From: Bretschneidera sinensis
Taxonomy: Eukaryota > Streptophyta > Magnoliopsida > Brassicales > Akaniaceae
Assembly: GCA_023935145.1 (NCBI GenBank)
Contig: CM043701.1
Coordinates: forward strand, 69,607,317 to 69,671,316
Length of the DNA stretch: 64,000 nt
Direction: 5' to 3'
The notes beneath the pieces were generated by a model. That model worked only from the letters and a program-made list of their open reading frames with translations, searched no databases and had not been told where the DNA came from. A program made the translations under genes and the position numbers. This document shows positions 2,761 through 44,928 of the stretch, piece after piece (the stretch's first letter is position 1; each line of letters begins with the position of its first letter).

Positions 2761-3097
2761 AAGGTGAGGAACAAGTGTTCATGGGTTATTCAAGACCCAC
2801 GCTTGCAATCGGCAAAGGGAAGGTTCTTTTCAAGCCGACTTCGAGAAAAACCTTTAACTCACCAATGTGTTGCACGCGCCAGACATCTGTTATAATTTGG
2901 TTACTGTTTCCTTATTTTGGAAAGTTGAGATTTTTGAGTTTGATAAAATTATGATGACTAAGAATAATGCTTTTGTGGCGAAGGGTTATTGCAACTAGGG
3001 CCTGTTTATGTTAAATGTCTTTAACACAATAAAAATACATCTTTTTTTTGCTTACTTGGTTAACTCTTTTGACATTTAAAATGCCAAATTAGGAAAT

Positions 3098-20837: not shown

Positions 20838-21310
20838 TGTTCAGATTTTACCCCTAAAATCTACATACTCAAACGTACAATAATTAAATAAGCAAATAAA
20901 CAAACAAATATCAAACATAACAATTTAATGTGGTTTGTAAGCCTTTTTTTCTATGCCACCAATAAACTCACAACTTTATTAATTATTAATCAAAACTTTA
21001 GGAAAATCAAAATTATTACCCTAATAACCTCACAACCCAAAATCTCCAATACAACCAAGGCTCTCAACCTAGCTCTAGTTGTAAATCTCTCATATTTACA
21101 ATGTATATTGGAATTATGAGTGTGCCTCAAACCTTCTCTAGGGCCCCTTTATATAGAGGATATTTCCCTAATACTATTACTTGTACAATGAACAATCTAA
21201 TAGAAAACTAGTACTACTCCTACTAGAACAACCAACTATAAGATAGAAAACTAATTTTTCCAAACCAATTAGAATTCTTCCTTATGAGGATTTGAGCCAA
21301 AATCCTAACA
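20838..21310 (-). mobile_element. copia 3' LTR (473 bp)
   Basis: Aligns over its length with 27026-27538. The right-hand LTR carries an additional segment of about 40 bp near 27370. A TATA motif (tatatagagg) lies near 21152. Confidence 0.85.
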
Positions 21311-21675
21311 AATCTCCACCTTGGCTCAAATTTTTCACACCTCATCAACAAATCTAACTTTCTTCTTGGTTGGTATAATCCTTCCTTTTGGTCCTTCCAT
21401 ATCTTCTCCACCTAATTTTCTAAAAAAAATCTTCTCATCCAACATATACAAGCCCTTCTTGTTTATAGTAGCCTTCAACACTATATTTGATCTATTAAGA
21501 ACTTGCATATCTCCATTTGCCGCAGTCTATGTGTATCTCATCCTATCAAAATTTCCTAAAGAGATGATATTTTTAGTGAGAGAGGAAGCAAACTTTACCT
21601 TATCAAGTTTCTTCATGCTTCCATCATGGAGCTTCAACCTTAAGTTTCATTCACTATCAATTACTTTGTGTTTCC

Positions 21676-22945
21676 TGATGAGTCTTAAATATTGCAAATT
21701 TTAGACCCTTAACTTATATTTGTTATGCTCTTAGTTAGTAGTATTTCACTTTATTTTACATCTTTCTTGTGTTTTGTGTATTTTTACAGGTTTGGGGAGA
21801 AAATGAAGCATTTCAGGAGATGTGAAGCCTCTGGAGACATTGCGATCGATCGCACGAGATATGCGATCGAGCGCACCTGCACTCGAGCGCACCTGCCTAC
21901 GAATGAGCGCATGGTCAACATCCCACATCGAAATATTTGAAGTTCAGTGCATCTGCGATCGATCGTAGCAGACATGCGATCGAGCACACATGAGATCGTG
22001 CGCACAAGACATGCGATCGATTGTACCTGCGATCGGGCGCACACGGGCAGTATCCCACATCGAATCTGCAACCCATATTGCTCCGAGTCTTCCCCTATAT
22101 AAACACCATCTAGCTTCATCATTCAGTGTGCAATTATTTGTGTCATTGGGTACAATTCCTGAGCCACTTTGGTGTTTACCGGTGGACATCCGCTAGTATT
22201 CTGGTGGATCCCGAAGGCATTGCTACCACGAGGGGAAGCGCCGCCCATCAGCGAGTGGAATTTCTCCCATGTAAAGTTGTTTATTTATTTATTTTTATTT
22301 AGTTGTTGTAGTTTAATGTTTAACACTTCTATTATGAATTATAGTTTCATAGTTATGAGTTGCTAGACTCTTCAGCTAAGGTTGAAGATGAAGCCCCGCC
22401 GTTGTTTGGCGAAGTAGTTCAGATTTGCTTGTACAAATCTGACAATTTTTAGTATAAATGTTCTGTCAATTATTTGAGTTAATCTTATAATTGATTGAGT
22501 TTAAATTGTCTGTTGGATATTCCTTGTGTTTCATCTGATGGATACATTGAATGCTTTTCGATTAAATTGGATTTCCTTTGTGATTTGTTAAGAGCGGATA
22601 CATTGGATGCTTTTGGTTTAGTTGGGATATTCTTTGTTTTTTGTCTTATAGTTGGATTCATGGAATGTTTTGATAGGCTATATTTTTAGAACATATATGC
22701 TTAACTTTGGTGGGGTGGATTCAGAAACCTTAGTGTTTTTATTATTAGTTTTAAAAATCAATTTAATTTAGTTTTATTTTGTTTTCTAAAATATCATTCC
22801 AAATTCGGAACTAGGTTAAGATAAAGTTAGTTTAGATTAAAAATATATTTTCACAATGCAATTCCCTGTGGATTCGACCTCGAACTTGCACAATGCTATA
22901 CTGCAAACAACTCATGCGCTTGCGAGTAAATTAAAACTCACAACA
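21676..22945 (+). mobile_element. gypsy 5' LTR
   Basis: A TATA box (ctatataaacacc) lies at about 22092. A GCGATCG repeat array lies upstream of it. The GTGGATTCGACCTCG motif is near the 3' end. Differences from the 3' LTR look mostly like C/T and G/A transitions, as expected of methylated DNA. Confidence 0.9.
21838..22045 (+). repeat. U3 array of TGCGATCG(A/G)nCGCAC motifs
   Basis: Six TGCGATCG cores by eye, several extending to the palindrome GCGATCGATCGC, in an otherwise AT-rich LTR. The 3' LTR (24835-25064) has the same array with one extra unit of about 20 bp, which accounts for the LTR length difference. Confidence 0.85.
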
Positions 22946-22951
22946 AGTTTT

Positions 22952-22981
22952 TGGCGCCGTTGTCGGGGATCAAACCCGGGT
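22952..22981 (+). other. primer binding site for tRNA-Asp
   Basis: The sequence starts TGGCGCCGTTGTCGGGGATC. It matches the complement of the plant tRNA-Asp(GTC) 3' end as I recall it over about 30 nt with two mismatches, longer than the usual 12-18 nt. It begins 6 bp after the LTR. Minus-strand cDNA synthesis would start here. Confidence 0.8.
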
Positions 22982-22983
22982 TA

Positions 22984-23406
22984 GAGCATCGTGCGTATTG
23001 GGCTATCAAGCAACTCAATTTCAATCTTTCCAAGGCTGGCTCACAACGAAAACTCCAACTCAATGAATTGGAGAAGCTGTGGAATGATACATATGAGTGT
23101 GCCCGATCATACAAAACACAAATGAAGAAGACTCATGACCAAAACATTTTGAGACGAGCTTTTAAGCCGGGTCAAAAAGTTCTTCTTTACAATTCACGCT
23201 TGCATCTTTTTCCAGGCAAGCTCAAATCTCGTTGGACAGGCCCATTTATTATTCGGTCAATTTTTCCTCATGGGGCCATCGAGATTGAGGATCCCAAGAA
23301 TGGTAACATTTTTAAGGTAAATGGACAAAGGCTAAAACCATTCTTGGAGTTGAGGAGTCTGGACATAGAGACGATAATATTGGAGGATCCTAGTTATTCT
23401 GATTGA
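22984..23406 (+). pseudogene. gypsy integrase C-terminal fragment
   Basis: An open frame runs from the PBS without an ATG: LEHRAYWAIKQLNFNLSKAG, then QRKLQLNELEKLWND, FKPGQKVLLYNSRLHLFPGK, LKSRWTGPF and GNIFKVNGQRLKPF, ending at a stop at 23406. This is the last third of an Athila/Tat-type integrase. A deletion has joined the PBS region directly to it, removing all upstream coding sequence. The first ATG in frame is at about 23122, so a translated product is doubtful. Confidence 0.85.
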
Positions 23407-24670
23407 GTGTCGTCTACTAAGGGGAGTCTGGCTGAAGACTTTAAACTTAGCGCTCATGGGAAGCACCCCACAGCTTATGTTTTCTGTATATTTCTTAATT
23501 TTTATGATTAATGTTTGTTTCCAGTATTTTTTGTTTTCCAGTTTTTATTTTTCAGGGACAATGCGTACTTCAGTTCAAGTTTGGGGGTATGCTACGAGCC
23601 ATACTAGTCCAGATAGTTCTCCATATCCCAGGTCAGCTCTTTCCATATTATTCACACATTGGGGTCAATGTATAATTTAAGTTTGGGGGTATGGGAGACA
23701 CATCACACACTTTGTCCTAATTTGTTGTCTTTTCGTCGTAGAGATAAATGCATGCTCATGTTATCGTGAAATTTTGGTTGATCTTAACATTTTCTGTGAT
23801 GTGATGTCATTAGTGAGCTTAACATTTTGAACACATGATCTGGTGATAAATTTTTAAAATTTAGTTACTTACCTTAGGCATTTGAGAATTCACATGTTTG
23901 ACATAATCTAACACGAGCACATTAACACAAATTATGTGAGGTATGACATGTGATTTTAATGTGTATTTTTCCTTATCTTAACTGAAACTGGATGACTTGT
24001 TGGATGAACACTTGGGCATAAAAAAAATAATAAATAAAAATTACCACAACTTTCCACTGAGTAACTGGACCTCTTGCCTCAGTAAGCAGTGAGTGTTCAC
24101 GTCAAAAGGTGGAATTTTGCTTGGTAGTATTAAGGCTGGTTTATTTTCATAGCTTTTTTGACTCGAGTTAGTAAGTCCTTAGGGGTGTCTATACACCTAA
24201 TGCCCTAAAACCATCTGGTTTGGGAGTCATTGACTCAACACTCATTACATGGGTCAATTAGAAAGCTTAAGGGAACTAAACATTGTCGTGCCTTATTATA
24301 AAAAATAAAAAAAAAATTATGCCTTTTTCGTTCATTTTGATGGGAAATTCGGTGAATCTTGAGACATAGAGACCTTACACATTGGAGTTACTTCGAAGCT
24401 TCACTTTTATATGCTAATTCACTTTACACAGTGTCAGACTTGTGATGCCTTGACCTGCCTTTTGTAAGTAATTAGATTTTAACATTTCTATTCATTGCGA
24501 AGATGGGTTTATCTTTTTAAGTTTGCTCATGAATGAATATCATGGTGATGTGTGCTCCTTAAATTTTTGGATACCATGAGTGATGAACTTATCTTTATGT
24601 TCTTTGTTTTTCATTGAGTCTTTTATTTTGTTTTGCTAAGGGACTAGCAAAATATAAGTTTGGGGGTATT
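23407..24670 (+). other. element 3' untranslated region with three polypurine-tract copies
   Basis: AAGTTTGGGGGTAT occurs at 23577-23590, 23679-23692 and 24656-24669. The last directly precedes the 3' LTR and is the functional-position polypurine tract; the other two are about 1 kb upstream. The rest is non-coding. Confidence 0.8.
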
Positions 24671-25960
24671 TGATGAGTCTTAAATATTGCAAATTTTAGA
24701 CCCTTAACTTATATTTGTTATGCTCTTAGTTAGTAGTATTTCACTTTATTTTACATCTTTCTTGTGTTTTGTGTATTTTTACAGGTTTGTGGAGAAAATG
24801 AAGCATTTCAGGAGATATAAAGCTTCTGGAGACATTGCGATCGATCGCACGAGATATACGATCGAGCGCACCTGCGCTCGAGCACACCTGCCTACGAACG
24901 AGCGCATGGCCAACATCCCACATCGAAATATTTGAAGTTCAGTGCATCTGCAATCGATCGTAGCAAACATGCGATCGAGTGCATATGAGATCGTGCGCAC
25001 CAGACATGCGATCGATTGTACCTGCGATCGATCGCACCACACTGCGATCGAGCGTACACGAGCAGTATCCCACATCGAATCTACAACCCATATTGCTCTG
25101 GGTCTTCCCCTATATAAACACCATCTGGCTTCATCATTCAGTGTGCAATTCTTTGTGCCATTGGGTACAATTCCTGAGCCACTTTGGTGTTTACCGGTGG
25201 ACGTCCGCTAGCATTCTGGTGGATCCCGAAGGCATTGCTACCACGAGGGGAAGCGCCGCCCGTCAGCGAGTGAAATTTCTCCCATGTAAAGTTGTTTATT
25301 TATTTATTTTTATTTAGTTGTTGTAGTTTAATGTTTAGCACTTCTATTATGAATTATAGTTTCATAGTTACGAGTGGCTAGACTCTTCAGCTAAGGTTGA
25401 AGATGAAGCCCCGCCGTTGTTTGGTGTAGTAGTTCAGATTTGCTTGTACAAATCTGACAATTTTTAGTATAAATGTTCTGTCAATTATTTGAGTTAATCT
25501 TATAATTGATTGAGTTTAAATTGTCTGTTGGATATTCCTTGTGTTTCATCTGATTGATACATTGAATGCTTTTCGATTAAATTGGATTTCCTTTGTGATT
25601 TGTTAAGAGCGGACACATTGGATGCTTTTGGTTTAGTTGGGATATTCTTTGTTTTTTGTCTTATAGTTGGATTCATTGAATGTTTTAATAGGCTATATTT
25701 TTAGAACATATATGCTTAACTTTGGTGGGGTGGATTCGGAAACCTTAATGTTTTTATTATTAGTTTTAAAAATCAATTTAATTTAGTTTTATTTTGTTTT
25801 CTAAAATATCATTCCCAATTCGGAACCAGGTTAAGATAAAGTTAGTTTAGATTAAAAATATATTTTCACAACGCAATTCCCTGTGGATTCGACCTCGCAC
25901 TTGCACAACACTATATTGCAAATGACTCGTGCGCTTGCAAGTAAATTAAAACTCACAACA
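24671..25960 (+). mobile_element. gypsy 3' LTR
   Basis: Partner of 21676-22945. Followed immediately by the TTTCC target duplication. Confidence 0.9.
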
Positions 25961-25965
25961 TTTCC

Positions 25966-26110
25966 CACATGCATTAGCAACTATGACATGGGTAGGTTCC
26001 CTCATACAATCAAAGTACTTCTTCTTATTGAATATGTGAATGGAGGACACTGAATCAAGTAGCACCATATTACTCTCATCAACTTTTTTTCAATGTGCTC
26101 AATAGCTAGC
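25966..26110 (-). pseudogene. copia protease region, interrupted by the gypsy insertion
   Basis: The minus strand reads VLLDSVSSIHIFNKKKYFDC near 26062, matching the protease block L-D-S-G-[AS]-[ST]-x-H with Gly replaced by Val. It continues after the insertion at 21675-21420 with KLHDGSMKKLDKVKF and NIVLKATINKKGLYML, the GAG-pre-integrase region. The end of the internal region then comes at the polypurine tract. Confidence 0.65.
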
Positions 26111-26369
26111 ACCTCTTCATCACTTCCCTCAGTGATATTAGAACTTTCATTACTCTTTCCATCATCACTCTTCTTCCCACTCATCCTTCTACATTTTTTT
26201 TTAAATCATCCTTCATGGTCTTGCAATAATATTGTATGTGTCATATCTCTCTATAGTAGAATCACTCATTTTTACTGTCATCTCTAGGCCTAGATTTGGA
26301 TTTCCACCTTGACCCATTGTTCGCTCTCCATTGGCTCCTCCCTCGATTAGAACTCTCCACTACAAGTGC

Positions 26370-27011
26370 TTAACTACCACTAGACAAGCTCTCATTTCCT
26401 ATCAACCTCTCATTCTCGTATAGGACCGTGATCACATCATATAAGTTCAATGTCAATTTACCCACTAACAATGTTTGTACCAATAGTTTGTAAAATTTTG
26501 GTGAAGATGATAATAAAAGCAATGCCTTCTCCTCATCCTTCAATTTTTCTTCTGAATTGAACAATTGAGACATTAGCTTGTTGAGTTCATTCAAATGATC
26601 ATGAAGACTTGTACCGTCTTCCATCTTTTGAGAGTAGAGGTTCATCGTAAGATACAATATGTTGTTCAAAGACTTTGATGCATAGATGCTCTCGAGCTTA
26701 TCCCACAAACCCTTGGGTGTAGTTTCCTTCAACACAGTATACTTGATCTTAGGAGTAAGAACCAACTTGATTGTGTTCACACCTTTTCTCTTAATTGATT
26801 GTCACTTTCTATTAGTCACCTCTTCTAGCATTTCTTCCTCTAAAGCCTGATCAATATCTTGTTGCACTAAAAGATCTTGAACTATACTTTGCCACAGAGT
26901 AAAATTATTTCTTCCATTAAATAAATAAACCTCAAATTTAGGAATATATGTTGACATGATGGCGCAGATGCAACAAATAATAACAAGCCGCTTCTTCAAA
27001 TAGATAACCAT
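26370..27011 (-). pseudogene. copia gag
   Basis: Two open stretches on the minus strand, 27011-26802 and 26780-26370, separated by a stop and a frame change. The first has PKFEVYLFNGRNNFTLWQSI, the Gag N-terminal block, and LLVQQDIDQAL. The second has GLWDKLESIYASKSLNN, LYSQKMEDGTSLHDHLNELN and EEKALLLLSSSP, the UBN2/Gag domain. A degenerate CCHC region follows near 26220. Structural protein of the particle; it needs only a few changes to be open, consistent with an element mobilised in trans. Confidence 0.8.
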
Positions 27012-27025
27012 GCTTTGATACCACT

Positions 27026-27538
27026 TGTTAAGATTTTACTCCTAAAATCCACTTACTCAAACTTACGATAATTAAATAGGAAAATAAATAAACAAATATC
27101 GAGCACAAAAATTTAATCTGGTTTGGCAACCACTTTTTCTATGCCACCAACAAACTCACAACTTTATTAATTCTTAATCAAAACTTTAGGAAAAACAAAA
27201 TTATTACCCCGAAAACCTCACAATCCAAAATCTCCAATACACCCAAATCTCTCAGCCTACCTCTAGTTGTAAATCCCTATTATTTACAATGTATATTGAA
27301 ATTATGAGTATGCCTTAAACCTTCTCTATGACCCCCTTTATATAGAGGATATTTTCTTAATACTATTACGAAAAGAACAAAAATATCATAGTAGATTACT
27401 AGTACTACTTGTACAAGAAACAATCTAATAGGATACTAGTACTACTCCTACTAGAACAACCAACTATAAAATAGAAAACTATGTTTTCAAAACCAATTAG
27501 AATTCTTCCTTGTGATGATTTAGGCCAAAATCCTAACA
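27026..27538 (-). mobile_element. copia 5' LTR (513 bp)
   Basis: Partner of 20838-21310. Followed on the minus strand by the PBS at 27012-27023. Confidence 0.85.
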
Positions 27539-27834
27539 CAATGAGTTTCAGGCTGCAAAGGTAGTGTGTTTAACTTCTTGTGGATTTCAAGCTTCATGGG
27601 GATCACCAATGGGGTTGAAGAAATGGGCAGAATATTTGGCTAATCATATGGATAGTGAGATGCTAGCGTTACTTTTACAATAGCTTCATGTTTGTCGATA
27701 AACAGAAACATCAAGCTCTATAAAAAAAAAAAAATGAGATGCCACACCATATGCATTTTATCAACGGGTTTCTGTTTACCTTCATGATTTTCTAGAAGTT
27801 CAAGATTTTAGAAGTTAGTCGGCTTCTCGGGCCT

Positions 27835-28290: not shown

Positions 28291-29271
28291 TTCAATGCTT
28301 GCAACCAATTTTTGTTCTTCTATATATATACATATATAGGGAGAGAGAAAGAAACTTGTTAATTATTATTATCCTCTCTGTTACTTTTTGTCAACCAACT
28401 CCCATAGTTCTTACTTCTAATTGAATTTAGAAATTGTGCTAATCTGAAACTATTGATTGCTTCATATAACTTCAAACCTATTAGTGAGCTATTTGTTTTC
28501 TATAGGACAGACATAACTTGCATCTCAATCTAAAGGTAATATTTTTCGTTGAACATAATTTCTTCCCGAGTGGATTATATAATGTTAAATCATGATATTC
28601 TGTGCCTTTAGATTTAAACTAAAGTAAAGAAATTATGCAACAAGGGGATCATAGGAGGAGCAGCACTAACTAGGAGAATCAAAAGATGCATCAAGCTTGG
28701 CAATATATTTAGAAATTACAATGGCCTTATAAAGTCCATTGTTTATTAAAAAAAATATTGCATGGTATTTTAAAGAGTTCAAAATCATTTTTTATGCCTA
28801 CTATTTAAAAAGGAGGAAAACATGAACCATATGTAGTCACATTGTGATATATCAAAACATGAGTTAAAGGTAAATTTCTTCGTCCTTTGTCATTGAAGGC
28901 AAAGATATCAGAAGTTCATCTTCTTGATTAGAATCAAAGGAGTTATAACAGAAAATAAGAGACATTATTGCCTGCATTACCTTCATGGAAAATTTCAAAA
29001 GAGGTCATCCTTCTTAATAAAGATTTTTCTCCTAATGAGCAGGAGAAGGGAGCTAAATTCTTTATATATTGTATTTCATATTATTTGGGAAACTTTTGTT
29101 TATGCAGTAATGAAATTCTTTGTATGGATTATTTAAAGTGTATTATTTTTTCTAAAGTCTTAAGAAAAATTGTGTAGATATTTCAATCTTTTCTAATGTA
29201 TTTTTCTTCTCTACTCAAGCTCGTGCATATCACAGGTTCATGTCTAGTACATAAAAAAAAAAAATTAAACT
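28291..29271. other. intergenic DNA, no gene recognised
   Basis: AT-rich. An open frame of 70 codons at 28924-29136 shows no known motif. Short TA-rich and GA-rich stretches lie near 28322-28352. Confidence 0.5.
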
Positions 29272-29797
29272 TGTTAAATATGGCTATAATTTATTGGTTC
29301 CGGTTTAGCTCTTGTGTTGATTCTAATGCCATGTCATTCGCAACTAAAGTTGTGGGTCTTCTAACAGTAGACTTGTAATTAAAATAAAACAAGGACAAAA
29401 TTTTATTGGTGGTAAAATTATGAATAGGTATAGGACACTAAATTCTAGACCAAAAAAAAAGTGTTATTCTCCGTGGTTACTGTTCCTATATAAATGTTTT
29501 GGGGTTTTCTTTGTGATACAATACAAAACAGACAGCGTAGTAGAAAAAAATTAAGTTAAATCGGTCAGTTTCTATTTTTCTTTATTACTAGGCTATTGTA
29601 TTTTCCTAATTAAATTTATGATAGCTTAGATTTGGGTATATTGCGATTTGGGCTTAGAGATTTTTTATCTCTCTTGATTTTTACTCCAATTTGATTATAG
29701 TAGAATCTCTCACCATTGCCCATGGACGTAGAGTTTTAGCTCTGAACCATATAAATTTTTTATGTCTATTTATTTTTTGTCTGTTTTATTCCTAATA
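29272..29797 (+). mobile_element. copia 5' LTR
   Basis: TATA-like cctatataaatg near 29488. The 3' boundary was set by comparison with the 3' LTR end TTCCTAACA. Confidence 0.8.
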
Positions 29798-29835
29798 AAC
29801 TAGTATCAGAGTTATTGTTAATCGATGTAGACGCT

Positions 29836-30600
29836 ATGTCTTCTACCACTTCGTACGAGATATAGAAGTTTGATGGAACCTACAGTTTTAATATTTGATA
29901 AGTAAAGATACAAGTCGTATTAACCCAAAAAGGTTTAAAGCAGATGATGTTGGGGAAAGAGAAGATGCCTAGTACGATGACAGATGAATAAAAGCTAGAG
30001 ATGGATGAGACAACTTTGATTGTGATTTAGTTATGTCTATCAGATGGAGTTTTGCGTGAAGTTCTTATAAAGAAAACTGTTGCTAGCTTATGATGTAAAT
30101 TAGAGTCTATGTACAGGACAAAACCCCTCACTAGCAAACTTTTCTTGAAGCAACAATTTTATTTGTTGCATATGGAAAAATGGAATAATTATGAGAAATA
30201 GAGTCAAGGTGATGATGCCCTAGTCACTAAAGGTTCTAAAGGTAGATATAGAAAAAGATGTTCAGGTAACAATAGCAAGAAATTTCAATCTAAGTCTAGA
30301 ATTAAGAACGTGACTTGTTATTACTATAAGAAAAAAAAAAGGCATTACAAGTCTAAGTGTTGGAATTTGAAAAAGAAAATTCTGGAAGAAAACAATTAGA
30401 ATCTAGTTCAAAATCGAGATCAAAATCATAATCAAGATCGAAAAAAGAAACAACCTGAAGCCAATGTTAGTGAAGAAGACTCTTATGGATATGATTGTGT
30501 TCATACTATTAGTGGTAATAGGTTCTTTGTGTCTAATTGGATTATGGATTTAGCTATACATTTTTCTACTACTCCATCTGCTTTTCATTCTGTCACAAAG
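29836..30600 (+). pseudogene. copia gag and protease start
   Basis: Frames read SYEI-KFDGTYSF (Gag start), VLTQKGLKQMMLGKEKMP, DGVLREVLIKKTV, TKPLTSKLFLKQQFYLLHM, then a damaged zinc knuckle VTCYYYKKKKRHYKSKC in which the second Cys is Tyr and the Gly before His is Arg. The start of protease follows (WIMDLAIHFSTTP in place of W-I-L-D-S-A). In-frame stops are frequent. Confidence 0.75.
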
Positions 30601-30602
30601 AG

Positions 30603-31817
30603 AACCCCAAAACACTTATATAGGAACAGTAACCAAGAAGAATAACACTCCTTTTTGGTCTACAATTTTGTGTCTTGTACCCATTAGTAATCTTGCCACC
30701 ACTAAATTTTTTTCATTGTTTTATTTTAATTAAAAGTATACTGCCTTTTATGTATAGGCATAAGACCCACAACTTTAGTTGTTGATGACTTGGTATTAGA
30801 AACAACACAAGGGTAGAACCATAACTAATAAATTCAAGCTATATTTAACAAATCTCCACCTTGATTTGAATTTTCACAAATAGAAAAATATTGTCCACCA
30901 TCTCAAAAAATTCTCCAAGGCATAATTCAAACGTTGTAAGTAACACAAATCAAGTCTAAGCAATACTCAAACTTGGACATTGGAAGTGGCTTAGTCAACA
31001 TATCTACTGGATTATTTATTGTCCTAATTTTTTTCACAATAATCTCACTCCTATCAACTATGTCTCGAATAAAGTGATAATGAACACCAATATGCTTCGT
31101 TATATCATGAATCATCATCTTAGATTTATAACCAATTGTTGTTCTGTCGATTACAAATGCTGAGTATATAGCTATAACAGAGGCTACCAAAGAAATTGTT
31201 TGGTTGAGAGGGTTATTTAGTGAATTATATTGGATTCATGATGCTACTATTTTTCATTGTGATAATAAAAGTGTCATTCACATAACTAAGGATCAAATGT
31301 TCCATGAGAGAACAAAGCATATTGATGTTTGTTATCACTTTGTTCGAGACATAGTTGATAGCAGTGAGATTGTTGTGAAGAAAATTGGGATAGGAGATAA
31401 TCAAGAAAACATGTAGACTAAGCCACTTCCAATGTCCAAGTTTGAACATTGCTTAGACTTGATTGGTGTTACTTACAACGTTTGAATTATGCCCCGTTGG
31501 AGAATTTTTGGGGATGGTGGAGAGTATTTTGCTATTTGTGAAAATTCAAGCTAAAGTGGAGATTTATTAAATATGGCTATAATTTATTGGTTCCGGTTCA
31601 ACCTTTATGTTGCTTCTAATGCCACGTCATCAGCAACTAAAGTTGTGGGTCTTATGCTTATACATAAAAAGGCAGTAGACTTTAATTAAAATAAAACAAA
31701 TACAAAATTTTAGTGGTGGCAAGATAACTAATAGGTATAGGACATGGAATTCTAGACCAAAAATGAGTGTTATTCTCCTTGTTTATGTACTGTTCCTATA
31801 TAAGTGTTTTGGGATTC
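30603..31817. repeat. inverted repeat, arms of about 530 bp, loop of about 160 bp
   Basis: The left arm (about 30603-31130) is, in reverse complement, the same sequence as the right arm (about 31290-31817). From the outside inwards both hold part of the LTR, the polypurine tract and the RNase H tail. The minus strand of the left arm encodes KHIGVHYHFIRDIVDRSEII and the plus strand of the right arm KHIDVCYHFVRDIVDSSEIV. The arms are similar but not identical. Confidence 0.85.
31135..31490 (+). pseudogene. copia RNase H C-terminus
   Basis: Plus-strand reading NAEYIAITEATKEIVWLRGL, then FHCDNKSVIHITKDQMFHER and TKHIDVCYHFVRDIV, ending near TKPLPMSKFEHCLDL. It is the normal 3' end of copia Pol ahead of the polypurine tract, with one stop at about 31416. 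A second, inverted copy of the last part lies at 30927-31130. Confidence 0.8.
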
Positions 31818-32092
31818 TCTTTGTGACAATGAAAAAAAGACATGGCAGTAGAAAAATGTATAGCTTAATTAATTACTTTCTATTTTTCTTTATTACTGGG
31901 CTATTTTATTTTTCCAATTAAATTTTGATAGCCTATAGTTAAGTGTATTGTGAATTGGGATTTGGGATTAGGGAGTTTTATTTTTCTTGATTTCTACTCC
32001 AATTTAATTATAGTGGAATCTCTCACCATCGCTCGTGGACGTAGAAATTTTAGCCAGTGTCTATTTATTTTATATTTGCTTTATTCCTAACA
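31566..32092 (+). mobile_element. copia 3' LTR
   Basis: Preceded by the polypurine tract aagtggagattta. The first bases are TATTAAATATGG, so the initial TG has mutated to TA. TATA-like cctatataagtg near 31795. Confidence 0.8.
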
Positions 32093-32496
32093 AAAATAAG
32101 TTCAAACATTCTTGATGCATGTGAATAAAACCTAGAACTATTCACATTGCCTCAAGCAGATTAACTATCAAAATTAAAATACTGATAATTAGTTATAAAT
32201 AATATAATCTAATAAGAAAAGAATGTAGTAGCAATTTAACGTTAATATTGATAAAAGATTACCTTATTTTAAAGTGTGCATATTGATTCCATTGATCCCA
32301 CTGTCCTATCTCCACAGTTTGAAAGATAACACAAGCACGAGTTATCCAAAGGAAAACTATAATTCTATGCCTTCAATTATATCAGAAAAAGATAAAATTA
32401 ATCTATAAAGAGAAACTGACCAAGTAAATCAATCAAGAGAAAAATCATCCTTAAGAATACAAAATAAGTTAACAATTATGATTATGGACATACAAA
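32093..32496. other. spacer between two retroelements
   Basis: AT-rich, no coding or repeat signal recognised. Confidence 0.5.
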
Positions 32497-32965
32497 TGTT
32501 AGAACAGTAGTGCTAGAATTATGGTATTCCACTAATTCTAGCTAGTGACAGCTCTTAATGGAAGAGAGAAGATAGAAAGAAGAGAGCTTGTGAAGAAAGA
32601 AAAGTGGTTTACTCATTAATACCTCTTTCTTATACATTCGGGCTTATTTATAGCCAATGCTTGAAGACTATAGATACAATGAAACAATTATTAACAGAAT
32701 TCAAGACTACCAACTCATCTTGTAACAGACTACTCCACCTATAACAGAATTAACTACTTCAACAAACTAACTCTCCCTCTTCTCTAGTGGCATTTGTTAT
32801 ATCACATAGTCCTTTGTCCAATTAAGAACCTTCCTAGTCCTTCTTGGTTGGTTTTGAATCTCTGGCTTTGTACTATTTTCCTCCTCTGTTAGCAATAACT
32901 ATTTTGTATCTATTACCATCTGATTTTGATCCACTGTTACAAGCTCTATCTCTTTGATCATATCA
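32497..32965 (-). mobile_element. chromovirus 3' LTR (469 bp)
   Basis: Plus strand begins TGTTAGAACAGTAGTGCTAG and ends TTTGATCATATCA. A TATA-like element (gcttatttatagcc) lies near 32642. Longer than the 5' LTR because that copy has lost about 70 bp around 44783. Confidence 0.85.
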
Positions 32966-33042
32966 TTCCCACCTTCATCAAATACAACCTTGTCCTCAAG
33001 GTTTAAGTGGGGATAAAGCTGAGATAAGTTATGTAAATTTCC

Positions 33043-36000
33043 TCAAGAAGTGTCTTCAAGTGCTAAACCTTGCCACTGCAATAGAACTTGTTGGACTTGC
33101 TGTTGGTTAAGAATTATAGTTTTATGACCCAATATTGCCATAGGCATAGTAATAGATTTGTTTCCCACTAATAGAGGACATAAAGAAGCCAGAGCTTGGT
33201 TAGGATCACCATGAAATTTCTTTAAGAAAAACACATGAAAGACAAGGTGAATTATACTGTGGACATGTAAAGCCATCTTGTAAGCTACAGCTACCACCTT
33301 CTGTAGAACTTCAAAAGGCCCATAAAATATTTTACTAAGGTTGTGATGGATTCTTACAACCACATATGGTTTTTTATATGGTTAGATTTTGAAAAGAACC
33401 CAATCTCCTACAGCAAAAGAATTATCAGTTATGTTGTGATCTGCAAAATGTTTTATCCTAATCTGAGCAACTTGTAAATTTTGGTGAAGTTGTTCAAGAA
33501 TTGTGTCACTAGTAGATAAGTCCTAATCCAACGCTTCAATATAAGAGGAACCTCTGATGTAGTGTATAATTGTAGAGGGTTGTCTACTATAAATGGATTG
33601 GAAAGGGTCATTTTTATAGCAGTGTGATTGGAGGTGCTATACCAATATTCTACCCACAACAAAAACTTTGACCAGATGGTAGATGGATCATGAGAAAATG
33701 ATCTCAGGTATTTCTCCAAACACCTATTGAGAACCTCATATTGTCCATATGTTTGAGGATGATAAGCAGAGCTCATATCTAGTCTTGTGCCACTGAATTG
33801 GAAAAGATGTTGCCATAGGTTACTCAAGAAAAATAAGTCTCTATAAGAAAAAATAGATCTAGGAATTCCATGCAATTTGACCACCATTTCATCAAATAGT
33901 TTAGCAACTTTTTCAGTAGTGAAATAAGTAGGTAGTGCAACAAAATGAACACCTTTAGATAGCTTGTCAACTACCACCATGATCACTATATGACCTTGAA
34001 AACTAGGTAAACCAGTGATGAAATCCATAATAATATATTTCTAAATTTGTTCTAGGATTAGAAATGGTTGTAAAAGACCAGTTGGCATTGTAGTGGGGTA
34101 CTTAGTCTGTTGACAAATGACACACTTGGTGATAAACTGTTTAACATTATATCTTAGCCCAGGCCAGTAAAAGGTTGTTGAGATCCTCAAGAAGGTTTTT
34201 AGTATGCCAGTATGTACTCTAGTAGGTGTTGCATGAAATTCTTGCAAAATAAGAGGTTTAAGGGATGAAGTAAAAGCAAGCCTTAGCATGCCTTTGTAGT
34301 ACCACAACCCATTCTTCATTTGATAAGCTTGATCAACTAAAGTATCATTTTGTAAGCCTTGATGTAATGTCACCAATTCATAATGAGTTAAATTCTCTTG
34401 TTGTAATTGTGTTAAGAATTCAAATGTAGGGATAGTTACTGCATTAATTAGTTGGATCTTTGATATGCTAGAACTATAAGCATTGTTATGAGTACTGTCA
34501 GGTAATCTGGATAAGGCATCTGTTGTTGCATTCTCTTTGCCAGGTTTATACACAATAGCATAGTGATATCCCAATAATTTGTTGAGATAATGATGCTACT
34601 CTAGAGTTTAAATAACCTTATCCATTAAATTTTTAAGCTTCTATGGTATATTCTAATGATGAACTCTCTGTCCAACAAATATTTTCTCCACTTAATAATA
34701 TCTTGGGTAATGGTAAACAATTCTTTGACATAAGTGGATGTTGTAGCCATTTTGGTACTGAGCTTCTTGTAATAAAAAGCAATGGGGTGTCTTTTTGTCG
34801 TAAGATAGTTTCAATTCCTACATTAGAAGCATTAGTCTCCACCTAAAAAAGCTTTGTAAATTTTGGTAAGGCTAACATTGGAACTTCTATCATAGCTTAC
34901 TTCAAATGAGTAAAAGCATTCATGGCTTTTGTAATCTAATGGAAAGCTTTTTTCTTCAAAAGATCAGTCAAGAGGGGAGCCATAGTGGCATATCCTTAGA
35001 CAAACTTCCTATAATACCCTGTAAGGCCTAAAAGAACCTCTCAATTGTTTCACATTTTAGGGCACTAGCCATTCAAGCATACCTACTACTTTAGAATTAT
35101 TTGATCTTACTCCTTCAACATAAACAATATAGCCAATATATTCTACTGAGGATTGACAAAAGAAGCATTTACTAAGTTTTGCATATAGTTGATGAGAGAT
35201 TAAGCATTGTAAGATAGTTCTTAAGTGTTGTAAATGATCATGGAAAGAACTATAAACAAGTATATCATCAAAGAAAACAGTAACAAACTTTCTCAAGTAG
35301 GGCTAAAAAACCTGATTCATAGAGAACTGAAAGTTATAAGGGGCATTGGTAAGTCTAAAAGGCATCACTACAAACTCAAAATGACCTTGATGTGTTCTGA
35401 ATGTTGTTTTGTGAATGTCAGCAGGGTCCACTCCGATTTGATGATATCTATCCCTTAAATCCAACTTGGAATGGAAAAACTGTCTTTGACTGTAATGATA
35501 TTTAGAGCTCTATAATCTATACCAAAACTCCAAGAATCATCTTTCTTTTTTACCAACAGAACAGGAGATGAAAAGGAACTATGGTTGGGTCTAATGATAC
35601 TGGTTTGAATCATTTCAAAAACAAGTTTCTTAATTTTTTGTTTTTTGAAAGTGGAGATATCTATATGGTCTGACATTTATAGGAGGAGCTTGAAAATAAA
35701 TTAATCTGATGATTAAATGGTCTTGAAGGTGGTAACTGAGTGGGTTCTTTGAAGATAGACTCAAATTCTTGCAATAAGGATTGGACAGCTTCAGGTACAG
35801 TAGCTTTGATAACAGAATCCTGTGTTGGTACTGCAGATGCTACCAAGTGATAGAAAAATGACATTTCAGTTCCATTATCTAACTTCTTCAGGTGTTTCAT
35901 GTGTAAGGGATTATGAACTAGATGGTATTCTCCTTTTAATTGAATATTTTTGCCTTACCATTGAAAGTTCATAGTTAGAAGCATATAATTTGTAAGTACA

Positions 36001-36251
36001 TGTCCCAATACCTCCAACCATTGGATGCTAAGAACAACTCAGCACCTTGTATAGGAAGAATAAAGAGGTCTACTATGAAGATCTAGTCTTAAAGATTAAG
36101 TGCAACTGCAAACCATTGCTTAGTACAGCTCAAGTAGTCTCCATTGCACACATAAACCTTTAATGGCTTAACTGGAGAAATTTGTAAGGCTAACTTTAGA
36201 GCTATCTTTTCTTTTATGAAGTTATGTGTGCTACCACTGTCAATGAGCACT
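33043..36251 (-). pseudogene. chromovirus pol: protease, RT, RNase H, integrase, chromodomain
   Basis: Protease VLIDSGSTHNFI (36251-36216) is intact at the D-S-G site. RT has the [18 protein letters not shown] block near 35540 and catalytic VFFDDILVYS (35280-35250, both Asp kept). Then come HYAIVYKPGKEN-ATTDALSRL (34574-34510), zinc finger H-H-C-C (FHATPTRVH ... CVIC), and integrase core with first Asp in MDFITGLP, second site FSYRD (normally SDRD, Asp changed to Tyr) and Glu in QYEVLNRCLEKYLR. The C-terminal stretch VLLQWQGLALEDTS and, past a stop, HLNLEDKVVFDEGG is chromodomain-like, the part thought to guide insertion. At least eight stops or frameshifts: inactive. Confidence 0.85.
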
Positions 36252-36299
36252 TGGAGCTTATGTTTCACATGAGTTCCAATAATTTGATAGTTCTTCGGT

Positions 36300-37168
36300 T
36301 TAACTACCCTGCTAAAGCATGCATACTGACTTCAGGAAATCTTATCTCTTCATCTGATTCTTGGTTTTCTTGATTGGATATAAAATGATCGTTTTCCTCC
36401 TTCTTATCCCCTACCATCAAGAAAAATTGTCTTTTACATTTGGGATTCTTATAATACTTATCATCATAATTATAAAATAGCCATTTTTCCCTTCTAACTT
36501 GCATTTCAGTAGGACTCAATCTTCTAATAGTAGTATTTGGAGGAAAGGGTAACTTGTTTTGCTCCCCAACTGGTGTTTTCAAAATTCCTAGAGCCAATGA
36601 GTGTCTCAGCCATTGATTCTTGAATGATTGCCTCATTTCTTTATATTTATATTCCTGTAATCTAGCTAATTTCATAGCTTGAATCAATGAAGTGGGTTAT
36701 GCCACGAATAGTTCTGTCTTTAATTCAGGTTAAAGACCTGATATGAAGAAATTGATCAATAAGGATTCTTGTAACCTAGAAACCTTAGTAGATAGCATCT
36801 CAAATTTAACTTAATACTCAGCTACTATAGTTCTTGAGTCAATTTTGACCAGCCCCAATATAATCCTCAAACATTGATGGTCCAAAACTCAATTGTAATG
36901 CCCTTAAGAACTCTTTCCAAGTATTAATGAATTTGTTGTTGTGCATCCATTGATACCAAGAGATAGCAGGTCCTTCCATATGAAATGAAGCTATAACAAG
37001 TCTTTGATCATCTAGAGTGTAATGATAATCAAATAATTGTTCAGCTTTAAAGATCTATCCTGAAGGATTCGAGCCATCAAATCTTGGAACATCTAATCTC
37101 ATAGTTTTAAACTTTTATGAGATTGGATGAGTGATTGTAACCTCTGCATTTTGATCCAATGAAGCTTT
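36300..37168 (-). pseudogene. chromovirus gag, main part
   Basis: After the copia insertion the minus strand reads NSKASLDQNAEV, RLDVPRFDGSNPSG, FKAEQLFDYH, VIASFHMEGPAISWYQWM and FLRALQLSFGPS, the retrotransposon Gag domain. A frame open over 127 codons (36687-36304) holds the C-terminal part, with YKNPKCKRQFF at the zinc-knuckle site and HALAG before protease. Several stops separate the pieces. Confidence 0.75.
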
Positions 37169-37173
37169 AGAAT

Positions 37174-37569
37174 TGAATAATTTGAGACCTGTCAATCACA
37201 CGAATTATAAATAGAAAGAAAAGAAGACAATATTTACCTAAGTTCACCCCAGAACAAGGCTACATCCTGCTAGAAGTTTTTTATTATCAACTTCACAAAT
37301 CTCTCGTTACAATGTATACTCAGTACATAAAGAGTATTTATAAGCAACTTAAGACGTCCTAATTAGGGACTAATTAAGATTTTCGCCTTTCTGTAGAAAA
37401 ACGGCTATTCATGGGCCCGAGCCCAAACCACCCAGCAAAAAAACAGACCCAACTCATATACAGGGCCTGAAAGTTTAGGGGGCACTGCCCGCTCTCTGAG
37501 GAGCGGGACCCCCATAGTCATCCGGGGTTCTATAGATCTGATCCCGGGAATTATGTACCAACTCTAACA
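37174..37569 (-). mobile_element. copia 3' LTR
   Basis: Partner of 41706-42114, with a short GC-rich block near 37490. Confidence 0.88.
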
Positions 37570-37618
37570 ATCTCCCACTTGGTAAATACTTCACACACAT
37601 GGAAAACTTCCCAGAACT

Positions 37619-40600
37619 CTATTTCTTCAAGCCGATCTCAGTAGCACACCACTCAAACTTTACTAAACTAATTGCCTTAGTCAAGAAATCTGCGTTGTTC
37701 ACTGTTGTATCGAATTTCTCCAAGATTATCACATTTTCTTCAATCTTTTCTCTGATGAAGTGATATTGGATATCAATGTGCTTCATCCGTGAATCAAATA
37801 GAGGATTCTTTGCTAAGAAGATAGCACCTTGATTATCACATTTTACCTTCACTGCTCCTTGTTTAAACCCAAGCTCAGTACATAACCTTTGAAGCCAAAC
37901 CGCTTCCTTTCCAGCATGAGTTATTTCCATATACTCTGCTTCTATGGATTAAAGAACAACAATACTTTGTCTCTTGCTCATCCAACTCACCGCCCCACCA
38001 AACAGATTGAATATATATCTGCTTGTAGACCTCCTGCTATTAATGTCTACTCCCTAGTCAGCATCAATTGTTCCTACAATATCAAGATTCTTCTTACCTT
38101 CCATACCTCCATAACACAATGCAAACTCTGATGTGCCACGAAGATATCTAAGAACTCTCTTGGTTGCAATCCAATGCTATTTCCTAAGATTAGACATATA
38201 TTTGCTCAATACTCCCACTACTTGGGCAATATCTGGTCTCGTACACACCATGGTGTACATCAAGCTTCCAACCACACTAGCATAAGGTACATGTGCCATC
38301 TCTTCAGCTTCTTCCTCCATCTTCAGACATTGTTCCACAAATAACTTGGTTCCTAAAGGTATAGGAGTCCCTACCGGCTTACTGTCAGACATGTTGAATT
38401 TCTTCAACACTTCTTCAATATACTTCTTCTAACCTAGCCACAGTTTTCGATTTTCATGATCCTTCTTTATCTACATGCCCAAGATAAAGTTTGTTGGCCC
38501 TAGGTTTTTAATGTCAAACTGTCTTGCCAACAATGCCTTCACAGTGCTAATCATCTTCCTGTTATTTCCAATCAACAGCATATCATCAATATACAAGGTT
38601 AAAATGACAAAATCAACCATAAACATTTTCACATAGACGTAGTGATCAGCATAACTACGAGTGAACCCAAGCTAAATGACATATGTATCAAACTTTTGGT
38701 ACCACATCTATGGTGACTGCTTTAGTCCGTACAAAGACTTCTTTAATTTACAAACCAGATCTTCCTTGCCTTTGCTCACAAAGCCTTCAAGTTGTTTCGT
38801 GTAAATTTCCTCCTCTAAGTCCCTATAAAGTAAAGCTATCTTCACATCCAATTTCTTAATCTCTAGATCATAAGCAGCTGCCATAGATAAAACACATCTG
38901 ATAGAAGTCAACTTTGCTACCGAAGAAAATATCTCACCATAGTCAATTCCCTCATTACCCCTTTGCAACCAGGCATACTTTATACATTTCTACCATTCCA
39001 TCTGCATTTGTTTTCTTCTTGAAAATCCATTTGCACCCAATTACCTTCCTATCTCTAAGAAATTTCACAAGGCTCCATGTTTCATTCTTATCTAGTGCCT
39101 ACATTTCCTCTTTCATAGCATCCTTCCGCAGATTTGCATCCTTCGAGGTCCTTGCCTATTTCATTGTGCTAGGATTATCACCAGTAATATTTAAAGCATG
39201 TAATGCATTACATGCATTAGGGGAATACCTGATGGGTGGTCTCCTAACCCATGTGGATCGCTTTATGACAGGCGTGATCTCTACCCCCAAGCCAGTATCT
39301 AAATCCTCATCCTTTACATCAGAAACATGAATATCGTACTTAGACCCAACTAACTTAGAATCTGAAGTATCCGATGCAATCTATGGGGTAGTCTCCCACT
39401 CTTTATCTCTTAGGCTAAGATCAATCTGAAACTACTTTAGCTGTTCCAGTACATCTTGGACAGCCACCACATCTCTTTGTGTTTCCTTGAACACAACATC
39501 TCTGTTGTAAACTGTACTCTTTTTTTCTGGATTCCATAACTTGTACCCCTTGACCCCATCCTTATAACCAATGAAAATGAACTTCACCGATTTGCAATCA
39601 AGCTTGTTCCTCTTTTATTTTGGCACATCCATATAAGCATCACACCCAAACACCTTAACATGAGCCAAACTCGGCTTCTTCCTGAATAGTGCCTCAAATG
39701 GTGTTTGATCCTACAAGGCTGATGTAGGTGACTTGTTCTTTAGATAACATGCTGTAGCAACCACCTCTGCCCAAAACTCCAGCTCTAAGTCTGCACAACT
39801 CAACATACTCCTCGATTTCTCCATGAGTGACAGATTGAGTCTTTCGACCACCCCATTCTATTAAGGTGTATATGGAGTTGTTTTCTGTCTTGCAATGCCA
39901 ATTTCCACACAAAATTGATCAAACTTGTTTGAGCAAAATTCCCCTCCATTATCTGTTCTCAGTACCTTTATCTTTCTTTCCATATGATTTTCTACCAATC
40001 CTTTAAACTCACAGAACTTATCAAATGTTTCAGCTTTACTCTTCATGAAATAAATCCATGCATACCTTGAAAATCATCAATGAAAGAGACATAATACCTT
40101 GATTTTCTAAGAGATTGGATCGGAAATGGCCCAAACACATCACTATGTATTAAATCCAGAATACCCTTTGCCCTCGTGCCAGCGGACTTAAAACTCACAC
40201 GGTTTTGCTTGCCATATAGACAATGCTCATAGAAACCGAATCTCATAAAGCAATCTGGGACTCCCTTCACTATCTACTTTGATGATAAATTAGATAGTCC
40301 ATTTTCATCGATATGCCCAAGCCTCTGATGCCACAACATAGAGGACGTCGCCTCATCATCAGTTGTCTTCTCATAAATAAAACCTCCATTGCACTGACTT
40401 TGTACTGTATTTCCCAGCAGCTTATCCAACGTACCATACCAAACACCTCGTGCAATTACTAACGATCCACGAGTCATCTTGCACGAATTTTGGTCACAAC
40501 TGAAATTCACTCCCACATCTGTCATCTTGTTGACTGACATCAGGTTCTTGCTGAGACCCGGAACCTGCATCACGCCTATCATACCTAGAAGTGTTCTGAT

Positions 40601-40800
40601 CGTCCCATCATTCATCCTCAACTTTACATTTCCATAACTAATAATTTTCACCAAAGAGTTATCTCCCAATAAAACATTTCCCCCATCAAAGATTTCATAC
40701 TCACGAAATTAGTCCCTGTGAGGTGTCATGTGAAAGGAGGCTCATGTGTCAATTATCCAAATACTTTGATCTGATTGAGCCAAATAGGATGCCATATTTA
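37619..40800 (-). pseudogene. copia pol: protease, integrase, RT, RNase H
   Basis: Protease site near 40750 (WIIDT-ASFHMT, with a stop). GAG-pre-integrase open 40669-40274 (GLSKNLMSVNKM, LWHQRLGHIDENGL). Integrase has HCLYGKQNRVSF, LIHSDVFGPFP, YYVSFIDDF and LRTDNGGEF (40270-39870). RT has GIDYGEIFSSVAKLTSIR, KKLDVKIALLYRDLEEEIY and YGLKQSP (38968-38708), catalytic YIDDMLLIG near 38590, and PVGTPIPLGTKL with YTMVCTRPDIAQV (38410-38177). RNase H tail (37930-37619) has CDNQGAIFLAKNP, KHIDIQYHFIREKI and NADFLTKAIS. About ten stops; catalytic Asp pairs in RT are kept. Confidence 0.87.
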
Positions 40801-40859
40801 AGTCACCAACATCATAATCTACTAGTCCTTGTTTCCTAAAGTTGATCTCTGGCCTATAC

Positions 40860-41664
40860 ACTTTTTAGGGTTCACATTTTTACTTCTGCAATCCTTCTTT
40901 AGATGCCAAGGCTTCCTACACTTCCAAGACTTCAACCCAGATGTATCCCTACTTTTCGATCGTCCCCTGAACTTGGGTTTATCACCAAACCACTTGTAGT
41001 CTTTATCATAGGTTCATCCTCTCACGGATAAGGCCTCCTTTGACGAGTTATCTGTACCCTGCCACCTCATCTCCTCATACAATAAGGCTGCCACAACATT
41101 CTTAAAAGACAGATCAATCATACCACTACCAATTACAACTATCAAGTTATCCCACGAATTAGGCTATGAACAAAGCAGCGTAATAGCTTTATCGTTATCC
41201 ATCACATCAACACTGATAGATAATAACTAACCTATCAAAGTGTTGAACTCATGTAGATGAACAGAGAAAGAATCGCCCTCAGCGATCCGAAGGTTGTACA
41301 ACTTCTTCCGCAGAAATAGTTTGTTTACTAGAGATTTACTCTGATAAAAGCTTTCCAGCTTCTTCCAGAGATCTTTCGTAGTCTTTTCTCCATAAACATT
41401 TATCATGACAGAATCAGCCAGGCACAGTCGAATCAGACTTTGTACCTTCCAATCAAGCTTCTCCCACTCCGTAATGGTCGTTGAAAATGATATCAAAACC
41501 ACCATTGGCAACGCCTCTGCCATGGACGTCGTACTCTTCAGTATCTCATCAATTATCACCGTCAACAAATCCCTATCCAAAAGTAGATCCTCCATCTTCA
41601 GTTTTCATAACTTGAAGCTCTTTCCTCCAAACTTCTTGATTTCACTCTGTGATCCAATCGACAT
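40860..41664 (-). pseudogene. copia gag
   Basis: Starts MSIGSQSEIKKFGGKSF at 41664, with a stop where Trp of the S-F-x-x-W block should be. It continues open (41595-41227) with MEDLLLDRDLLTVIIDEI, DLWKKLESFYQSKSLVNKLF and EGDSFSVHLHEFN. A damaged zinc knuckle near 40930 reads SWKCRKPWHLKKDC, the first Cys being Ser and the Gly Trp. Structural protein of the particle; two or three stops interrupt it. Confidence 0.82.
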
Positions 41665-41705
41665 CTCTGATCATTAATCCTCGAACAGAAGGCTTTAATA
41701 CTAAT

Positions 41706-42114
41706 TGAATGATTCGAGACCTGTCAATCATATAAATTATAAACAGAAAGAAAAGAAGACAAGATTTACCCAGGTTCACCCTAGAGTAGGGCTACGTCCT
41801 GCCAGAAGTTTCTTATTATCAACCTCACAAATCTCTCGTTACAATGTATGCTCAGTATATAAAAAGTATTCACAAGCAACTTAAGACATTCTAATTAGGG
41901 TCTAATTAGGATTTCTACCATACTGTAGAACTACGGCTATTCATGGGCCCAAGTCCAAATCGCCAAGCAAAAAACAAACCTAACTCATGTACATGGCCTG
42001 AAAGTTTCGGGGGTGCTGCCTCCTAACCCCCGCCCTCTCTCTGGGGAGTGAGACCCCCGTGGTCATCTGGGGTTCTACAGATCTGATCTCGTGAAGTATG
42101 CACCAACTCTAACA
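41706..42114 (-). mobile_element. copia 5' LTR
   Basis: Also matches the LTR at 280-548, showing at least two copies of this family in the window. Confidence 0.88.
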
Positions 42115-42132
42115 AGAATTTTTAAAGTGATT

Positions 42133-44235: not shown

Positions 44236-44475
44236 TGATTCCCTTGCTGTTGTAGTATCTCAAACTTGGAATCGATTGAATGCATGAATTGCTGCATTGT
44301 GATCTTTAATTCATCTATCTTTTGATGTATTTGCTTGTGAAGCTTTATACTTTCCTTTCTGAATTCAATAGATTCTTGATATTGATCTCTCTAGAATTGC
44401 TATTGAGTCTTTAGTTGATCAATGTGAGTCTTGATTTGATCATCCAACTTTGAGAATCTTGTGCGCTCGGCCATG
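44236..44475 (-). pseudogene. chromovirus gag N-terminus
   Basis: Begins MAERTRFSKLDDQIKTHIDQ at about 44475, contains one stop, and continues FEILQQQGN up to the insertion site. Charged and coiled-coil-like, as usual for chromovirus Gag N-termini. It continues at 42132 and at 37168 after the two insertions. Confidence 0.75.
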
Positions 44476-44531
44476 GTGGTTGAATTTCTAAGTGAAACTT
44501 CGTAAGATTGGGAGATCGATGAAAGCACCAA

Positions 44532-44928
44532 TGTTAGAACAGTAGTGCTAGAATTTTGGTAATCCACTAATTCTAGCTAGTTGACAACTCCTAATGGATG
44601 AGGCCAGAAAGGAATAAGAGAGTTTGTGAAGAAGGGAATAGGTTTATTCATTAATACCTCTTTCTTACACGTTCAGGCTTATTTATAGGCAATGCTTGAA
44701 GACTCTAGATATAATGAAACAATTATTAACATAATTCAAGACTGCCAACTCATCTTGTAATAGACTACTCCACCTATAACAGATCATTTGTCTGGTTAGG
44801 AACCCTCCTACTCCTTGGTTGGTTTTGAATCTCTGGCTTTGTACTATTGTCCTCCTCTATTGGCAGCAACTGTTGTGTATCTATTATTTTGATCCAGTGC
44901 TACAGGCTCCATCTCTTTGATCATATCA
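44532..44928 (-). mobile_element. chromovirus 5' LTR (397 bp)
   Basis: Partner of 32497-32965. The PBS-position sequence TTGGTGCTTTCATC lies just inside on the minus strand (about 44518-44531). Confidence 0.85.

Follow-up and report, generated by a model that had tools for sequence, protein, structure and literature searches.

A reversed copy of the LTR–RNase H end inside a decayed copia-type element of Bretschneidera sinensis: anatomy, folding and possible origin of a transposon-derived inverted repeat

How does a retrotransposon that still lies between its own two LTRs come to carry a reversed second copy of a 3' end of its own kind, and could RNA read through the resulting inverted repeat silence its relatives? 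The question is posed by a copia-type remnant of 2.8 kb (29272-32092) in a 64 kb window, the whole stretch of DNA analyzed (C5:69607317-69671316), of the 1.21 Gb host assembly. A sequence-only reading had placed an inverted repeat inside an element with both LTRs, and self-BLAST indeed finds opposite-strand arms between direct LTRs. The remnant is made up of two LTRs, a partial gag-protease region and a truncated RNase H end, with the following features.

29267..29271, no strand: left copy of the putative TSD, AAACT, a 4/5 match to the right copy
29272..29799, plus strand: 5' LTR, with a TG start and a degenerate end; direct repeat of 31565-32092
29801..29812, plus strand: primer-binding-site-like stretch adjoining the 5' LTR, putative and read by eye
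29836..30547, plus strand: gag remnant and opening protease codons, with stops; weak Pfam match; relative L038
30548..30555, no strand: left junction between gag-protease and inverted LTR, 3-8 nt overlap
30548..31115, minus strand: inverted arm, comprising the first ~305 bp of the LTR, polypurine tract and RNase H tail
31116..31127, no strand: middle junction between inverted RNase H tail and resident RNase H, overlap ambiguous
31127..31296, plus strand: resident RNase H coding remnant, the hairpin loop, with protein and DNA relatives
31297..31869, plus strand: resident arm, comprising the RNase H tail, polypurine tract (by eye) and first 305 bp of the 3' LTR
31565..32092, plus strand: 3' LTR, TA...CA, its initial G altered
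32093..32097, no strand: right copy of the putative TSD, AAAAT

Read along the plus strand, the 5' LTR leads into gag and the opening protease codons and then into the inverted piece, whose order on that strand is LTR part, polypurine tract and RNase H tail; the resident RNase H, polypurine tract and 3' LTR follow. The two LTRs stand in direct order with 80% identity over 498 columns (BLAST; K2P 0.189), and they begin at 29272 and 31565 in the orientations that had been claimed, the 5' LTR pointing through the repeat. TATATAA boxes are found at 29487 (+), 30622 (-) and 31797 (+), so that transcription in both directions is conceivable. The LTR part of the inverted arm holds U3 with the TATA box at 30622 and continues beyond that box by ~70 bp; it therefore contains more than U3, and the earlier list of U3, polypurine tract and RNase H tail was correct in its components but too narrow. 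A match of at least 4/5 between 5-bp flanks is expected by chance at 3.2% in the local flanks, which makes the putative TSD weak.

Pfam returned only one match, of 30094-30198 to the copia-type gag family Retrotran_gag_2, and its E of 0.0083 misses the curated cut-off. Protease, RNase H, polypurine tract and primer-binding site are therefore named by the general motifs of such elements and by likeness to relatives. The gag-protease remnant matches the two-LTR relative L038 at 77-80% as far as 30546, and we take the first codons after the gag remnant to be protease; the stretch at 29801..29812 would presumably be a primer-binding site of the initiator-tRNA type. We likewise assume that the coding remnant at 31127..31296 is RNase H: the resident piece had no match in Pfam, and 31132-31413 has 19 protein relatives at E ≤0.001 (24 candidates; best E 4e-28, 62% identity), which bear no domain labels and of which ten sequences were inspected. 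Four matches to ETV6 fusion constructs in a PDB sequence search (E 0.004-0.011) were set aside, a scan of viral contigs confirmed no relative, and Rfam had 0 matches within the 64 kb window.

Other repeats share the window. An exact tandem duplication with a poly-G start at 3678-3966 (139/139 bases by BLAST; period 150 and 100% by TRF) lies in a repeat-rich region and may be recent or an assembly effect. A 286-codon open stretch at 9998-10858 matches RVT_2, the copia-type reverse transcriptase (E 3e-57). An old copia-like element at 20838-27542, with direct repeats of 85-89% and a copia-type gag on the minus strand at 26373-26801, encloses a younger one, nested at 21676-25960, with direct repeats of ~1290 bp at 94.7% identity. 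Beginning 400 bp past the copia remnant, a direct repeat pair (81-89%) surrounds an element at 32492-44928 that we take to be gypsy-like; on the minus strand, 33456-34595 matches an integrase zinc-binding domain and, below threshold, an integrase core. A second, shorter inverted repeat (45419-45590 and 46249-46417) is 83% identical.

The arms of the repeat within the copia-type remnant (30548-31109/31115 and 31297-31869) align on opposite strands by self-BLAST over 570-576 columns with 85.2-85.4% identity and an E-value of ~1e-168, and a repeat finder places them 181 nt apart. In an all-against-all comparison of the 64 kb window they form the top-scoring inverted match, at 582 bits against 422 for the next; the E-value and the fold described below together exclude chance. 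Aligning the region with its own reverse complement, the check that the sequence-only reading had proposed, recovered the arms at 85% identity. That reading had the symmetry right but drew everything slightly small, giving 30603-31817 with arms of ~530 bp and a loop of ~160 bp for what is 30548-31869 with arms of ~0.57 kb and a loop of 181 bp; the centre lies at ~31206 and not at 31210, and the supposed spacer turns out to be the resident element's own RNase H coding sequence. One assembly is the sole source of the structure, which leaves an assembly artefact to be weighed. A palindromic-read artefact would be expected to give near-identical arms, however, and here they differ by 15%, each with its own indels, and we regard the chance of an artefact as negligible.

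The junctions were searched against the whole assembly. With a query across the left junction (30440-30660; 40 of 373 first-look candidates scored), 39 other matches were listed, of which 38 stop at 30550-30555 and the remaining one is the element's own resident arm, starting at 30548; these match ends leave 3-8 nt that fit both sides. With a query across the middle junction (31040-31200; 40 of 274 scored), 62 matches were listed and the own locus alone crosses 31123/31124, all other listed matches stopping at or before 31123 or beginning at or after 31124. No other locus in the 1.21 Gb assembly spanned the left or the middle junction among the scored candidates, and a query with the whole structure gave no second copy among the 40 scored of 1446 first-look candidates. 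A multicopy hairpin family was rejected on the grounds that neither junction nor the whole structure was found elsewhere among scored candidates. An inverted self-match occurred in one of 35 stretches fetched from the family (32 places); it is unlike the present one (L033, 124 nt, 77%).

One junction lies inside the LTR, ~305 bp in, and the other inside RNase H, so that neither coincides with an LTR terminus. Autointegration was rejected for this reason. The same positions bear on the possibility that another subfamily member inserted into this element in antisense and later eroded at both ends. Such an insertion is a known route to LTR hairpins, and one was found for EVD in a single Arabidopsis individual (PMC11624286). 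The family would offer many candidates for it: a query with 31120-31600 gave 1124 first-look candidates, of which the 40 scored comprised the own locus and 39 places at 83-86%, and the family is, as judged from these matches, large. Against it stand the two ends of the inverted piece, ~305 bp into an LTR and inside RNase H, and the absence from the 64 kb window of a second LTR belonging to that piece, by self-BLAST and by the all-against-all comparison.

Among 32 non-own loci compared (L002, L006 and L009 were skipped as own locus or place of L003), only L003, L004 and L005 have the same type of U3; because most of these loci (29 of 32) were retrieved with the resident RNase H part, the counts are no census. 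Of the other 29 loci, 26 match part of the downstream LTR (R-U5) and three have no LTR match; a query with the inverted arm covered U3 at three other places among the 40 matches listed. Across L003-L036, the LTRs thus look modular, 29 of 32 RNase H-sharing relatives being without this U3 and 26 of those 29 matching farther downstream, as if promoters had been exchanged between subfamilies. Another stretch with a family copy, L039, contains a tandem array at 2261-3347 with units of ~48 bp, a spacing taken from staggered self-matches.

Where the inverted arm came from was examined separately for its coding and its LTR part. The RNase H/polypurine pieces of the inverted and the resident arm group as sisters in a tree with 48 relatives from 48 places, which keeps one piece of >200 bases for each distinct sequence (SH-aLRT 89.7, UFBoot 98), and they do so again among 32 relatives (UFBoot 89; L001, L002, L006 and L009 omitted from this and later trees). 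The two pieces have five rare letters in common, against a control mean of 0.94 over 496 pairs, in which three pairs reach at least five, all of them among L003, L004 and L005. AU tests on the RNase H piece rejected none of the placements tried. When the whole inverted arm was used as query, the best outside place among the 40 scored of 741 was the resident arm (644 bits, 568 bases), while L047, which is where L003/L037 lies on C1, came second (597 bits, 529 bases), each match being at 85%. The resident arm owes its lead to the RNase H part together with the final ~36 bp of LTR.

The LTR part gives a different neighbor. Over the first ~268 bp of the LTR (242 columns), the inverted copy is at a distance of 0.128 from L037, 0.157 from the 3' LTR and 0.165 from the 5' LTR, and of 2000 bootstraps, 1171 placed L037 nearest to the inverted U3, 120 the 3' LTR and 53 the 5' LTR. 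The comparable arm (507 columns) gives a tie, at 0.142 from L037 and 0.144 from the resident arm, and a separate comparison showed the same tendency, with an identity of 0.856 on the L037 side against 0.845 on the resident side. A first U3 tree was unresolved, with the inverted copy grouped with L003 at 37; with the last ~36 bp included, the U3 tree splits the three own copies from four LTRs of three relatives (95.3/92), and a pairing of the inverted copy with L037 is excluded by the AU test (p 0.033) but not by the SH test (p 0.051). As the RNase H part is nearest the resident arm and the U3 part as near or nearer L037, the donor of the inverted arm may have been this element or a close sister copy. 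For a nested insertion the two parts pull in opposite directions, the U3 in its favor and the RNase H part against it; with no LTR end at either junction it is not the leading view, and the U3 distances keep some weight on what we judge to be an unlikely origin.

The divergence of the arms (K 0.165) equals that of the LTRs (K 0.189) within error. For the U3 copies, K2P distances are 0.178 between the 5' and 3' LTRs, 0.205 between the 5' LTR and the inverted copy and 0.155 between the 3' LTR and the inverted copy, with overlapping bootstrap ranges; the last distance was smallest in 76% of 2000 bootstraps. At an assumed substitution rate of 1.3e-8 per site per year, arms and LTRs would be ~6-7 million years old. 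Pairwise U3 distances within the subfamily (5' LTR, 3' LTR and relatives) are 0.136-0.186, and the K of 0.189 between the LTRs is no lower than the distances between subfamily members. Since these distances resemble that of the arms, the subfamily would have spread at about the same time, and since its members are as diverged as the arms, the equal age of arms and LTRs is a weak pointer to one event and says little on the donor. Differences between the arms by codon position (10/8/7) lie within the ordinary range: among 496 pairs of relatives, 9.9% are as flat. The inverted repeat is real, well defined, single-copy as far as searched, and old.

The best explanation, and one that we rate at about an even chance, is a single copia-type insertion whose cDNA was rearranged before integration, as an aberrant reverse transcript, and which then decayed. 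Minus-strand synthesis would have proceeded from the 3' LTR across the polypurine tract and into RNase H as far as ~31125. There the growing end would have switched, at the equivalent of ~31288, to a minus-strand template, which may have been the same strand folded back on itself or cDNA from a sister copy packaged alongside. Reverse copying would then have taken in the RNase H tail, the polypurine tract and the LTR's first ~300 bp, and a second jump, to genomic RNA at the start of protease, would have cost the element most of pol. The product, with two LTRs, would have inserted once and then decayed. One faulty cDNA would account at once for the inversion, the missing bulk of pol and the two LTRs that remain, and it is the order of these events and the donor that we infer. 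In its favor are the two direct LTRs, the 4/5 TSD, the sister relationship of the RNase H arms, the split of the three own U3 copies from those of relatives, the junctions away from LTR ends and unique among the scored candidates, and the published template switching of plant LTR elements; against it, the nearness of the inverted U3 to L037, the weakness of equal age as a guide to the donor, the AU tests on the RNase H piece that reject no placement tried, and the weak TSD.

The main rival is repair of a break after integration, in which pol was mostly lost and the gap was filled by a reverse copy of the LTR-RNase H end through microhomology-driven synthesis, with the 3' end of this element or a sister copy as template. 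The junction features are those that repair would leave, with a 3-8 nt overlap on the left and an ambiguous one in the middle; the arm kinship fits equally, arm and LTR divergence agree within error, and the value for the arms is marginally the lower (0.165 versus 0.189). Repair would, however, require a deletion and an inverted copy in one event near the time of insertion, both of which aberrant reverse transcription yields together, an argument from parsimony and not a test. No second site with the same rearranged element was seen among the scored junction candidates. We consider repair possible but distinctly less probable than rearrangement of the cDNA.

Whatever its origin, the repeat folds strongly. 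RNA of 30548-31869 has a computed energy of -740.5 kcal/mol, compared with -277.9 ± 10.2 kcal/mol in 30 dinucleotide shuffles, and the fold contains 508 inter-arm pairs (484 Watson-Crick and 24 G-U), with a longest uninterrupted helix of 40 bp and 71 fully paired 21-mers when G-U is counted. The pairing is kept in a 2441-nt model transcript (511 inter-arm pairs), and read-through RNA is thus computed to form a long imperfect hairpin, in agreement with the earlier proposal that a transcript could fold into a long duplex. The proposed likeness to Mu killer held for the folding only: this is one old copy with arms of ~0.57 kb and ~15% mismatch, as opposed to a perfect 2.4 kb hairpin.

Would such RNA reach the family? 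Of the 32 relatives, 13 hold exact 21-mers of the inverted arm (median 0 per relative) and 27 hold exact 21-mers of the resident arm (median 7); the second count is inflated by the retrieval of 29 of these loci through the resident RNase H part. When up to two mismatches are allowed, all 32 relatives hold some 21-mers of each arm. As the U3 is common to only three of the 32 relatives, the promoter half could reach few copies. Heavy methylation might leave an excess of transitions, and in a weak test there was no such excess in the arms, the counts being 49:34 for the arms, 52:31 for the LTRs and 65:35 for the two LTRs of L038.

A working trigger like Mu killer, one whose transcript from the 5' LTR is diced into siRNAs that silence the family today, could exist beside any of the origins considered. 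The strong predicted duplex (-740.5 kcal/mol), the TATA boxes in both orientations and the 21-mers within two mismatches in every relative would suit such a role; the 15% divergence of the arms, about that of the LTRs and therefore no sign of kept pairing, the restriction of the U3 to three of 32 relatives checked and, weakly, the missing transition excess speak against it. A present silencing role is possible but unsupported, a working trigger of this kind seems to us highly improbable, and most likely the locus now does nothing beyond what any silenced relic does. A broader proposal is that strand switching in VLPs makes ready-made hairpin loci and that this promoter-fronted, self-complementary copy once helped to silence its own U3 subfamily (four loci seen, with many relatives lacking this U3); we think it very unlikely.

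An old mismatched copy by itself is anatomy only. The locus offers a clean, datable case in which one faulty round of retrotransposition could give rise to a hairpin-forming locus with no second insertion involved. Were such products common, siRNAs specific to a family could arise from them spontaneously, which would supply a missing link in the onset of silencing of a new retrotransposon.

Among known systems, Muk of maize is described in PMC2563033 as a perfect hairpin of 2.4 kb that yields 26-nt siRNAs and has been proven to silence in trans. The two loci are alike in being inverted duplications of part of a transposon (MuDR there) whose transcript could form a long hairpin. They differ in that the present arms are 0.57 kb at 85% and belong to an LTR element. 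Where a silencing locus of the Mu-killer type would have perfect or near-perfect arms, we found 85% identity and a longest helix of 40 bp.

A second comparison is with EVD of Arabidopsis, which we take to be a copia element. PMC11624286 describes, in one individual, an antisense nested insertion with LTRs 2562 and 1942 bp apart, and LTR sequence present in both orientations is proposed there, as could be imagined here, as a source of LTR hairpin RNA. That structure arose by a second insertion, whereas here a fragment is joined within one element and the arms are 181 bp apart. Autointegration, according to PMC4751563 and PMC2644782, gives inversions within Ty and retroviral cDNA and so resembles the present case in placing an inversion inside element cDNA; there the cDNA ends attack an internal site, whereas the junctions here lack an LTR terminus.

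Template switching has been described for direct-order complex LTR elements of grasses (Sabot and Schulman, PMC1950507), which are likewise single insertions with an outer LTR pair and extra LTR sequence inside. Their outer LTRs are alike and accompanied by flanking repeats, and their third LTR lies in direct order between two cores (PMC1950507); here the LTRs are at K 0.189 with a weak TSD, and the inner, partial LTR is reversed. In the literature searched, as far as its available text goes, we recognised no description of an inverted 3'-end copy within a plant LTR element. Long inverted repeats have been linked to transposon activation according to PMC12273906, and the present locus resembles those of the LIRBase kind in its long arms and short spacer: two long opposite arms, a short spacer and a stable fold were all found. 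It is a transposon-derived long inverted repeat, and so of a known kind, with an origin that is plausible and somewhat unusual.
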